Source of the DNA: Solirubrobacterales bacterium
GTDB taxonomy: Bacteria > Actinomycetota > Thermoleophilia > Solirubrobacterales > 70-9
Length of the DNA: 40,827 nt
Direction: 5' to 3'
NCBI GenBank assembly: GCA_013821475.1
Contig: JACDGU010000004.1
Location: 1-40,827 of the forward strand
The notes under the pieces are model-generated. The model made no database searches and was not told where the DNA came from. It was given only the letters and a program-made list of their open reading frames with translations. Shown piece by piece: positions 88 through 2,897 of the stretch; the first letter of the stretch is position 1, and each line of letters starts with the position of its first letter. Position numbers and translations under genes: made by a program.

Positions 88-846
88 ATGGCGAAGAGCT
101 TTCACGTCACCACCGACGAGATCGAGCTGCTCGCCATCTTCGGCCCGACCGGTGTCGGCAAGACCGGTGTCGCCGTCGAGCTGGCAGGGCTGCTGCGAGG
201 GCGCGGCGAGGATCCGGTCGCGATCTCCTGCGACGCGCTGCAGGTCTACGAGGGGCTGGGGACGCTGACCGGCGTCGCCTCCGGCGAGGAGCGGGCGCGG
301 CTCGAACACCGGCTGGTCGAGTTCGTGCCGGTGACCGAGGACTTCTCGATCGGCGACTACATGCCGCTCGCCCACGCTGAGGTTGACGCGGCGCTGGCGG
401 CGGGACGGCGGCCGATCGTCCTCGGCGGTACCGGGCTCTACCTGCGGGCGGCGCTCGCCCAGCTGTCCCTGGTCAAGGCGCCGCCGGAAGCAGGGGACTC
501 GGAGCTGTGGTCGCCCGAGACTCGCCACCCGACCCAGATCTTCGGCCTCGACATGGACCGGGCCCGGCTCTATGAGCGGATCGATGCCCGGGTCGAGGCG
601 ATCGTCGCCGCCGGCGCTGCCGAGGAGGCGCGCCGCGCCGACGCTCTCGGACCGGGCCGCACGGCGCGCCGGGCGCTTGGCTTTGACGAGTTGCTCGCCG
701 GCGACGTCGAGCAGATGAAAAAACGCTCGCGCAACTACGCCCGCCGCCAGCTGACCTGGATGCGGAAAATCCCGAACCTGCAGGGGATCGACCGCACCGG
801 CCTCGACGACGCCGATGTCGCCCGCCGGATCGCCGAATCTCTCTAG
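88..846 (+). CDS. miaA: tRNA dimethylallyltransferase (MiaA), compact form
   Basis: Transfers a dimethylallyl group to N6 of A37 in tRNAs that read UNN codons, in the cytoplasm. The P-loop GPTGVGKT is at residues 19-26. It is followed by a family-type CDALQVY segment (usual form DSMQVY, so Ser is Ala here) and GGTGLYLRAAL. At 252 residues it is shorter than the usual 300 or so. The helical tRNA-binding insert after the GGTGLYL motif, which normally carries a P-x-D-x-x-R-x-x-R-A-L-E-like stretch, is reduced to about 30 residues. The C-terminal RNYARRQLTWMRK tail is intact. The ATG is supported by a TACCCT box at 75-80, 7 nt upstream, and no Shine-Dalgarno is seen, so the mRNA is probably leaderless. 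dapF follows after 9 bp. Family assignment is secure; full activity is inferred. Confidence 0.9.
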   Translation: MAKSFHVTTDEIELLAIFGPTGVGKTGVAVELAGLLRGRGEDPVAISCDALQVYEGLGTLTGVASGEERARLEHRLVEFVPVTEDFSIGDYMPLAHAEVDAALAAGRRPIVLGGTGLYLRAALAQLSLVKAPPEAGDSELWSPETRHPTQIFGLDMDRARLYERIDARVEAIVAAGAAEEARRADALGPGRTARRALGFDELLAGDVEQMKKRSRNYARRQLTWMRKIPNLQGIDRTGLDDADVARRIAESL

Positions 847-855
847 GCTGCGCCG

Positions 856-1704
856 ATGCGATTCGAGAAGTGGCAAGCGCTCGGCAACGACTACCTGATC
901 CTCGAGACCCAGAACCTTCCCTGGGATCTGAGCCCGAAGCGGATCGAGTGGCTCTGCGACCCGCACTTCGGCGTCGGTGCCGACGGGATCCTGCTGCTGG
1001 CCCGCAGCGAGGAAGCGGAGTTCGTCGCAACCCTGCGGATCTTCAACCCCGATGGCTCCGAGGCCGAGCTCTCGGGCAATGGCGCCCGCGAGGCAATTCT
1101 CTACCTGCGCCGCCACGGTTGGACCGACGAGGACGTCTTCGCGATCAGCACCGTCGCCGGCCCGATCGTGCCGACGATCATTGGCGAGCTGACCTGTGCG
1201 GTCGACATGGGCCGTGCCTCGACCACCTCCAAGGACTTCCCCGGCGGCGGCGAGGAAGGGAGGGGCAAGCTGACCTCCGCCGGGCGCGAGTGGGAGTTCC
1301 AGCACGTCTCGATCGGCAACCCGCAGTGCGCGATCGTCGTCGACGCTGATGAGCTCGACGAGCTCGACCTCGAGCAGATCGGGCCGGAGATCGAAGCCAA
1401 CGCGCTTTTCCCGAACCGGACCAACGTCTCCTTCCTGGCGGTCGAAGCCGATCGGGTGCGGGCGCGGATCTACGAGCGCGGGGTGGGGGAGACGCTCTCA
1501 TCGGGCACCGGCGCCAGCGGCGCCGCGGTCACCGCCCACCTGCTCGGCGCCCCGGATCACCTGATCGTCGAGCTCGAAGGCGGCGAGCTCGAGGTCGAGA
1601 TCGGCGAGGGCCTGGCGGTGCGGCTGACCGGCTGGGCGGAGCCCGTCTACGCGGGCGAGCTCTCGCCCGAGCTGCTGGCGGCGCTGTCCGAGCTGGACCA
1701 GTGA
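856..1704 (+). CDS. dapF: Diaminopimelate epimerase family protein with both catalytic Cys replaced by Ser
   Basis: DapF converts LL- to meso-diaminopimelate for peptidoglycan and lysine. The protein has 282 residues, normal for the family, and the two-fold architecture is intact. Residues matching the substrate contacts of Haemophilus influenzae DapF are present at nearly the same numbers: N11, N64, N155, N190, E208, R209. However the first catalytic Cys (usual CGNG) is S73 in ELSGNGAR. The second (usual ACGTGA) is S216 in TLSSGTGAS. The family GNPH is GNPQ (Q157). The serine codons TCG and TCG are plain in the sequence, with no frameshift nearby. The gene lies between miaA and dapL, which makes LL-DAP, so the pathway context is right. 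It is either an epimerase with altered chemistry, a slow enzyme, or a DAP-binding protein. A TAGGCT box at 844-849 lies 6 nt before the ATG. Confidence 0.85.
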   Translation: MRFEKWQALGNDYLILETQNLPWDLSPKRIEWLCDPHFGVGADGILLLARSEEAEFVATLRIFNPDGSEAELSGNGAREAILYLRRHGWTDEDVFAISTVAGPIVPTIIGELTCAVDMGRASTTSKDFPGGGEEGRGKLTSAGREWEFQHVSIGNPQCAIVVDADELDELDLEQIGPEIEANALFPNRTNVSFLAVEADRVRARIYERGVGETLSSGTGASGAAVTAHLLGAPDHLIVELEGGELEVEIGEGLAVRLTGWAEPVYAGELSPELLAALSELDQ

Positions 1705-1727
1705 GCCAGTCGCTAGGGTCCGCGCCC

Positions 1728-2897
1728 ATGGGAATCGCCGACCCCTCAAAGCGCCTGGAGGCGATGCCTCCCTACAAGTTCCAGGAACTCGAGCGCCAGA
1801 TCGCCGACAAGCGCGCCGCCGGGATCGACGTGATCAGCCTCGGCATCGGCGATCCCGACGGACCGACCTACCCCTACATCGTCAAGGCGATGCAGGAAGC
1901 GGTCGCCGACCCGGCGACCCACCAGTACCCGAGCAACCGCGGCCGCGATGACTTCCGCCAGGCCTTCGCCGAGTTCTACGACCAGCGCTTCGGGGTCGAG
2001 ATCGACCCGGAAACGGAGGTGATCCCGGCGATCGGCGCCAAGGAGTGCATCTACAACCTCTGCTTCGCCTTCCTCGACCCGGGCGACGTCGCCCTTGCCT
2101 CCGACCCCGGCTACCCGGTCTACACCGGGGGCCCGATCCTCGCCAACGCGACCCCGGAGCTGCTGCCGCTGGTCCCGGAGCTGGGTTTCGCGCCCGACCT
2201 CAGCGCCGTCCCGGCCGACGTCGCCGCCAAGGCGCGGCTGATGTTCATCAACTATCCGAACAACCCGACCGGCGCCGTCGCCCCAGAGGGCTTCTTCGAG
2301 ATGGTCGTCTCCTTCGCCCGCGAGCACGAGATCCTCGTCGTCCACGACAACGCCTACTCGGAGACCACCTACGACGGCTACGTCGCGCCCAGCTTCCTTT
2401 CCACCCCCGGTGCGAAGGAGGTCGGCGTCGAGGTCTTCTCGCTCTCCAAGGGCTTCAACATGACCGGCTGGCGCTGCGCCGCGATCCTCGGCAACGCCGA
2501 GGCGATCCAGACCTACTGGCGGCTGAAGACCAACGTCGACTCCGGCCTCTACGAGGCGGTCCAGGTCGCCGGCGCGGCGGCGCTGCTCGGCCCGCGCGGG
2601 CCGCTGGAGCGGATGAACGAGACCTACGCCCGCCGCCGCGACCTCGTGGTCGGTGCCCTGCGCGAGATCGGCGTCGAGGTCAAGGCGCCGAAGGGCACCA
2701 TCTACGTCTGGGCGCCGGTCCCGAGCGGCCACACCTCGACCTCCTTCTGCGAGGCCGTGCTGGAGGAGGCGGCGGTGGTGATCTCGCCGGGCTCGATGTA
2801 CGGGCCCAGCGGCGAGGGCTTCTTCCGGATCTCGCTGACGACGCCCGACGACCGCATCGAAGAGGCGGTCGAGCGGATGCGCGAGCACCTCAGTTAG
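1728..2897 (+). CDS. dapL: LL-diaminopimelate aminotransferase (class I/II PLP aminotransferase)
   Basis: Fold-type I PLP enzyme that most likely converts tetrahydrodipicolinate plus glutamate directly to LL-DAP, bypassing the succinylase/acetylase steps. Seen in the sequence: N-terminal RLEAMPPYKFQELE and SLGIGDPDGPTY typical of DapL-like enzymes, NYPNNPTGA, the PLP-contact HDNAYSE, the lysine motif SLSKGFNMTGWR, and a C-terminal FFRISLT arginine. Length is 389 residues. I chose ATG 1728 over an in-frame GTG at 1701 because a TAGGGT box at 1714-1719 lies 8 nt upstream and homologues begin near this point. It follows dapF closely, which supports the DAP role over a generic aspartate aminotransferase. 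Its TAG stop (2895-2897) is formed by the outer edge of the downstream inverted repeat. Confidence 0.85.
   Translation: MGIADPSKRLEAMPPYKFQELERQIADKRAAGIDVISLGIGDPDGPTYPYIVKAMQEAVADPATHQYPSNRGRDDFRQAFAEFYDQRFGVEIDPETEVIPAIGAKECIYNLCFAFLDPGDVALASDPGYPVYTGGPILANATPELLPLVPELGFAPDLSAVPADVAAKARLMFINYPNNPTGAVAPEGFFEMVVSFAREHEILVVHDNAYSETTYDGYVAPSFLSTPGAKEVGVEVFSLSKGFNMTGWRCAAILGNAEAIQTYWRLKTNVDSGLYEAVQVAGAAALLGPRGPLERMNETYARRRDLVVGALREIGVEVKAPKGTIYVWAPVPSGHTSTSFCEAVLEEAAVVISPGSMYGPSGEGFFRISLTTPDDRIEEAVERMREHLS

Follow-up and report, generated by a model that had tools for sequence, protein, structure and literature searches.

How do Solirubrobacterales, an order of soil bacteria, make meso-diaminopimelate (meso-DAP), which serves the cell wall and lysine synthesis, if the only diaminopimelate (DAP) epimerase recognisable in them has serine at both places where catalytic cysteines are expected? 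Since these bacteria make meso-DAP, either serine does a job presumed to belong to cysteine or an unknown enzyme does it. The question arises from a dapF homologue at 856-1704 of the window, i.e., the whole stretch of 40,827 nucleotides analysed here (contig JACDGU010000004.1), which comes from a 2.72-Mb draft genome that is 89.6% complete. We consider it probable that this gene encodes the housekeeping DAP epimerase of Solirubrobacterales and that the enzyme works by Ser/Ser acid-base chemistry. The gene and its three altered codons are as follows:

856..1704, + strand: dapF, Ser/Gln/Ser-type diaminopimelate epimerase homologue, 282 aa (TIGR00652, two PF01678 domains, model superposition)
1072..1074, + strand: Ser73 codon TCG, at the place of the first catalytic Cys (SGNG) and the start of predicted helix 74-86 (translation, codons, model)
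1324..1326, + strand: Gln157 codon CAG, at the place of the catalytic-site His (GNPH to GNPQ; translation, codons, tree)
1501..1503, + strand: Ser216 codon TCG, at the place of the second catalytic Cys (SSGTG) and the start of predicted helix 217-229 (translation, codons, model)

Identity and catalytic residues

The predicted protein matched TIGR00652 with 189.1 bits (cut-off 114.65), and PF01678 covered it as two halves, both over the cut-off. In a sequence search, solved DapF structures aligned over nearly its full length (best E-value 4.6e-46). The motifs SGNG, GNPQ and SSGTG stand where canonical DapF has CGNG, GNPH and ACGTG. A first-pass annotation of this DNA had claimed that Ser73, Ser216 and Gln157 replace Cys, Cys and His, and both the translation and the codons (TCG, TCG and CAG) bear this out; to turn either TCG into a Cys codon (TGC or TGT) would take two substitutions. 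The same annotation held that all substrate contacts were retained. Asn11, Asn64, Asn155 and Asn190 do occupy the positions that it gave, and the Glu and Arg are present, but as Glu207 and Arg208, the numbers 208 and 209 being those of the Haemophilus enzyme. It also overlooked residue 44, which we take to be a substrate contact and which is Gly here vs. Gln44 in proteobacterial enzymes; in alignments, plant and cyanobacterial DapF likewise have Gly.

By sequence match, two-domain fold, orthology and pathway position the protein is a DapF. However, the thiol/thiolate Cys pair is missing (Ser73, Ser216), and of the catalytic-site His and Glu (His159 and Glu208 in H. influenzae) the His has become Gln157 while Glu207 is kept. 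With these two defining catalytic features lacking, the product is therefore best named a DapF-like enzyme, most likely working as DapF with altered acid-base residues. Relocation of the catalytic cysteines was ruled out: C34, the sole Cys invariant in the clade, is also common in Cys/Cys relatives, and C114 and C158 vary within the clade.

The predicted model (mean pLDDT 97) was closest to 9mro (Z 37.7, rmsd 1.9 over 267 residues). Its top matches were ligand- or inhibitor-bound DapF (9mro; 3ejx, Z 36.1; 5m47, Z 35.1) together with O-ureidoserine racemase (7vdy, Z 35.7), while open DapF (1gqz) ranked lower at Z 32.9. Ser73 and Ser216 lie immediately before their predicted helices, as the cysteines do in DapF. 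Compared with canonical DapF (TIGR00652; H. influenzae, E. coli, Anabaena and Arabidopsis), the protein shares fold, length, both PF01678 domains, the loops with their helix N-termini and the six residues Asn11, Asn64, Asn155, Asn190, Glu207 and Arg208; it differs in Ser/Ser for Cys/Cys, Gln for His, and the order-specific Glu/Gln79, Ser192, Gly222 and Trp260.

Distribution and descent

Among the relatives of the window's genome, the homologue was present in 59 of 61 genomes searched, and every readable homologue from the same order had Ser73, Gln157 and Ser216, down to 54% identity. A clean S/Q/S parse was obtained for 133 of 137 distinct order sequences; of the other four, two were truncated or masked and in two the pattern took Thr218 as the motif residue. 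Scanning named genomes gave 80 loci, 79 of which read SGNG/GNPQ/[SA]SGTG and one SGHG; Patulibacter, Conexibacter, Paraconexibacter, Svornostia and Solirubrobacter are among the genera represented. Many further homologues of the order came from metagenome-assembled genomes (MAGs). A record titled as a 'Bifidobacterium breve' MAG (L114) holds a Solirubrobacterales-type dapF with 67% identity to the Patulibacter query, and its title is probably wrong. Since the three states are shared by all readable homologues of the order, the observation is far beyond chance. It is both broader than first claimed, being order-wide and accompanied by repeated Cys-to-Ser change across the phylum, and narrower: the first-pass annotation had raised the possibility that Ser/Ser is general in Thermoleophilia, but most sister families of that class are Cys/Cys/His.

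We built a tree of 116 DapF rows from an alignment stripped of its motif columns. In it, the Ser/Gln/Ser proteins formed one clade (SH-aLRT 99, stem 0.30) nested in Thermoleophilia among Cys/Cys/His sister orders. Distance from the most recent common ancestor to the tips was 0.61 for this clade vs. 0.59 for the Cys/Cys family f5, i.e., no speed-up. The tree needs no fewer than 7 changes for site 73, 8 for site 216 and one, from His to Gln, for site 157. Serine was encoded at site 73 by TCN in 135 cases and AGY in 2, and at site 216 by TCN in 109 and AGY in 26; dN/dS was 0.18-0.41 by a simple count, as under purifying selection. The order-wide states, the purifying selection and the unchanged rate uphold the earlier argument that the gene is not undergoing random decay. 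Residues specific to the order are Ala8, Leu72, Glu or Gln79, Ala80, Ser192 (replacing Glu), Ser215, Gly222 and Trp260. These are candidates for compensation, and some are common to a separate Ser/Ser family, f7. A comparison of independent pairs on the tree for compensating substitutions did not reach significance, with too few independent changes, and the states at 8, 80, 215, 257 and 192 are only suggestive.

The gene is flanked on the same strand by two others:

88..846, + strand: miaA-like (tRNA dimethylallyltransferase), 252 aa (TIGR00174, 106.6 bits, below the cut-off of 148.65; synteny)
1701..2897, + strand: dapL, LL-diaminopimelate aminotransferase, which makes LL-DAP (NF006756, 536.5 bits, cut-off 507)

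The miaA-like protein of the window is short or divergent, and dapL scored 515 bits against TIGR03540, below the cut-off of 593. The adjacency of dapL was correctly noted at first: within GTGA, the dapL start codon (GTG, from 1701) and the dapF stop codon overlap, and miaA ends at 846. The order miaA-dapF-dapL on a single strand was found in 51 of 70 loci of the order and in 24 loci of the phylum, with Cys/Cys sister lineages included. Other Thermoleophilia had it in 30 of their 48 loci, and many of those without it do not extend far enough for it to be seen. Since this arrangement is shared, the Ser/Gln/Ser gene is the ancestral dapF altered in place.

In this it is unlike the paralogue of families f25 and f39 (L219, L221, L222, L224, L227, L229 and L231-L233), a homologue that also has Ser at both positions but reads SAAG or SATG rather than SGTG, lies outside the miaA-dapF-dapL locus and belongs to a different clade. 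Genomes with this paralogue carry a second copy within miaA-dapF-dapL, which is Cys/Cys (Ser/Cys in L226). Ser at both positions with the His kept occurs in L189 and L193 and in the Thermoleophilia families f7 (L074, L077, L078, L086, L087 and L188) and f11 (L070). Like the order's gene, f7 adjoins miaA, and several members lie near a dapL-like gene; f7 and f11 differ in the retained His and in forming a separate clade, and several f7 proteins are shortened (230-255 aa) and faster evolving, so that DapF in f7 may be losing or changing its function. Mixed pairs also occur naturally, as Ser/Cys (L190, L192, L195 and L226) and Cys/Ser (L236, L237, L238, L243, L249 and L257). These are mostly the sole copy found in their own genome, often in the order miaA-dapF-dapL.

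The source of meso-DAP

The Conexibacter woesei genome paper gives meso-DAP as the diagnostic amino acid throughout Solirubrobacterales (PMC3035278), and the compound was detected in S. deserti CPCC 204708 (PMC10722151). The dapF loci of this strain (L169 and L170) are Ser/Gln/Ser. Among 20 genomes of the order, lysA and murE were over the cut-off in all 20, and every MurE had DNPR, presumably a DAP-type motif. Given this chemistry and these genes, a source of meso-DAP must exist, and the Ser/Gln/Ser DapF is the only recognisable candidate. PF01678 was found in a single protein in nearly all (about 98) of 101 genomes of the order, the window's genome among them, and the second, Cys/Cys DapF that the first-pass annotation named among the things that would refute its reading was not found there. 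G227 has two copies, both Ser/Gln/Ser; extra matches in G005 and G210 were marginal; and in G187 a divergent sequence of Cys type lies on a different contig and may be contamination. Genomes lacking a match (G002, G035, G074, G230 and some others) were taken to have draft gaps.

As for the alternative routes to meso-DAP that had been suggested, meso-DAP dehydrogenase (Ddh), which leads to it directly, was over the cut-off in only one of the 20 genomes (G036). In that genome the dehydrogenase (L286, G036:C1:345697-346665; 444 bits) occurs alongside a Ser/Gln/Ser DapF. Alr was present once in 18 of the 20, twice in one and not at all in the window's draft, and the MurI-type racemase (PF01177) once in 16, three times in one and not in three.

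The glutamate racemase MurI provides a separate case of Cys-to-Ser change. At L311 (G049) and L313 (G040), and also at L285 and L282, it reads LGSTHY for LGCTHY, so that the second catalytic Cys is Ser in two members of the order; these proteins keep the first Cys, and the other MurI loci that were read keep the second. No match to MurI (TIGR00067) was found in 14 of 61 Solirubrobacterales genomes, including G038, G039, G041, G042, G045, G052, G058, G137, G168 and G177.

Several points weigh against a working Ser/Ser epimerase. The DAP-epimerase-fold enzyme PddB keeps <0.1% of its activity when Cys is engineered to Ser (PMC8225329), similar reports for M. tuberculosis DapF are cited there, and Cys-to-Ser mutants of HisR are greatly reduced (PMC11602996). 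The His, counted as one of four catalytic residues (PMC3581254), has gone too, which leaves no obvious base beside Ser73. Furthermore, genomes of the actinobacterial family f25 carry their Ser/Ser paralogue in addition to a DapF at the ancestral locus, and Ser at both sites is therefore compatible with another role. However, the proline racemase superfamily contains natural Ser/Cys epimerases and Ser/Thr dehydratases that do work (PMC4113996), and mutants of Cys enzymes are therefore a poor guide to an enzyme that evolved around Ser.

The main rival is that meso-DAP comes from an unrecognised enzyme, which might be a moonlighting Alr, another PLP enzyme or an epimerase of a new kind, while the Ser/Gln/Ser protein binds DAP without catalysis, e.g., as a regulator or as a subunit that holds or channels the LL-DAP coming from DapL. 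The near-dead Cys-to-Ser mutants (PMC8225329), the persistence of f25 paralogues beside another DapF, and the presence of Alr in 19 of 20 genomes are all consistent with it. Nevertheless, we regard it as unlikely, since nearly all genomes lack another DapF, a spare Alr-type racemase or Ddh, and since the order's copy occupies the ancestral dapF position, which the f25 paralogues do not. Retention of the six contact residues and an evolutionary rate that did not rise after the Cys-to-Ser change also argue against a binder, which would not need Ser over Ala, Gly or Thr at both sites. Therefore, we favour serine chemistry over an unrecognised epimerase.

Considerably less likely is that the protein is an enzyme for another substrate or another reaction, e.g., one that racemises a DAP-like amino acid or acts on it by beta-elimination, and that DAP is epimerised elsewhere. 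Enzymes of the DapF fold have changed substrate, as in histidine racemase (PMC11602996) and the Dab racemase PddB (PMC8225329), and Ser/Thr pairs dehydrate in the proline racemase superfamily (PMC4113996); the states at positions 192 and 79 would fit such a change. However, the DAP-contact residues are kept, dapL adjoins the gene, and no other DAP epimerase is known in genomes of the order. A wall built on LL-DAP, an option left open by the first-pass annotation in which no epimerase would be needed, has nothing in its favour beyond the missing cysteines and is very improbable given meso-DAP in the order and in a strain of Ser/Gln/Ser type (PMC3035278, PMC10722151), the presence in 20/20 genomes of lysA, the product of which requires meso-DAP, and DNPR in 20/20 MurE. 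Finally, errors of sequencing or assembly and pseudogene decay are refuted by the same residues in >130 distinct sequences from independent assemblies, with differing Ser codons and under purifying selection.

Proposed mechanism and meaning

Hydroxyl residues in place of catalytic Cys are known from other families. In the proline racemase superfamily, 4-hydroxyproline 2-epimerase (Ser93/Cys) and trans-3-hydroxyproline dehydratase (Ser90/Thr256) share the fold (Z about 25), and Ser at the first position works in an epimerase (PMC4113996). They differ in family and substrate, with 10-18% identity and Ser on one side only, and the passages of that paper considered here describe no Ser/Ser pair. 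The relation is by fold only: the Pfam family of our protein is DAP_epimerase, and the sequence search of solved structures gave nothing beyond DapF and O-ureidoserine racemase. EcL-DER and other Cys/Thr aspartate/glutamate racemases also have a hydroxyl residue for one catalytic Cys and are cofactor-independent, but they belong to another fold family, the change is on one side only, and the E. coli enzyme is irreversible (PMC8142540). Our search of the open literature, which subscription journals and preprints lay outside, returned no report of a Ser/Ser DapF, an absence that carries little weight.

In Anabaena DapF, helix dipoles and backbone amides stabilise the sulfurs, and the first Cys is the one that L,L-aziDAP alkylates (PMC12039745). 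Glycines equivalent to those of the Anabaena enzyme are kept in the protein of the window. In the proposed mechanism, DapL would supply LL-DAP, and both domains would close on it and exclude water. Two helices that face each other would carry Ser73 and Ser216 at their N-termini, one serine on either side of the alpha-carbon. In analogy to the first Cys, which LL-aziDAP alkylates, Ser73 may be the base that takes the proton in the direction from LL to meso, and Ser216, beside the retained Glu207, may be the acid that returns one. Gln157 would be a neutral neighbour of Ser73 in place of His, and the meso-DAP formed would supply MurE and LysA. With somewhat less assurance than for the housekeeping role itself, we lean towards the wider reading, in which this is an order-wide, essential epimerase with two-serine, two-base transfer of the alpha-proton and no catalytic-site His. 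The thiol/thiolate pair would then be dispensable for cofactor-independent amino-acid epimerisation, with Cys-to-Ser switching repeated in Actinomycetota and natural Ser/Cys and Cys/Ser forms.

The alpha-proton has a pKa of about 29, and its removal by a weak thiolate is a standing question of enzymology; the thiol/thiolate pair is regarded as what defines DapF. Comparison can put the thiolate question to the test, given a Ser/Ser enzyme that is natural and apparently essential and that has Cys/Cys sisters as well as Ser/Cys and Cys/Ser relatives within a single phylum. If the enzyme does use two serines, aziridino-DAP and other thiol-directed inhibitors of DapF should fail in Solirubrobacterales; if the protein is instead inactive, an unknown DAP epimerase must exist across the whole order.
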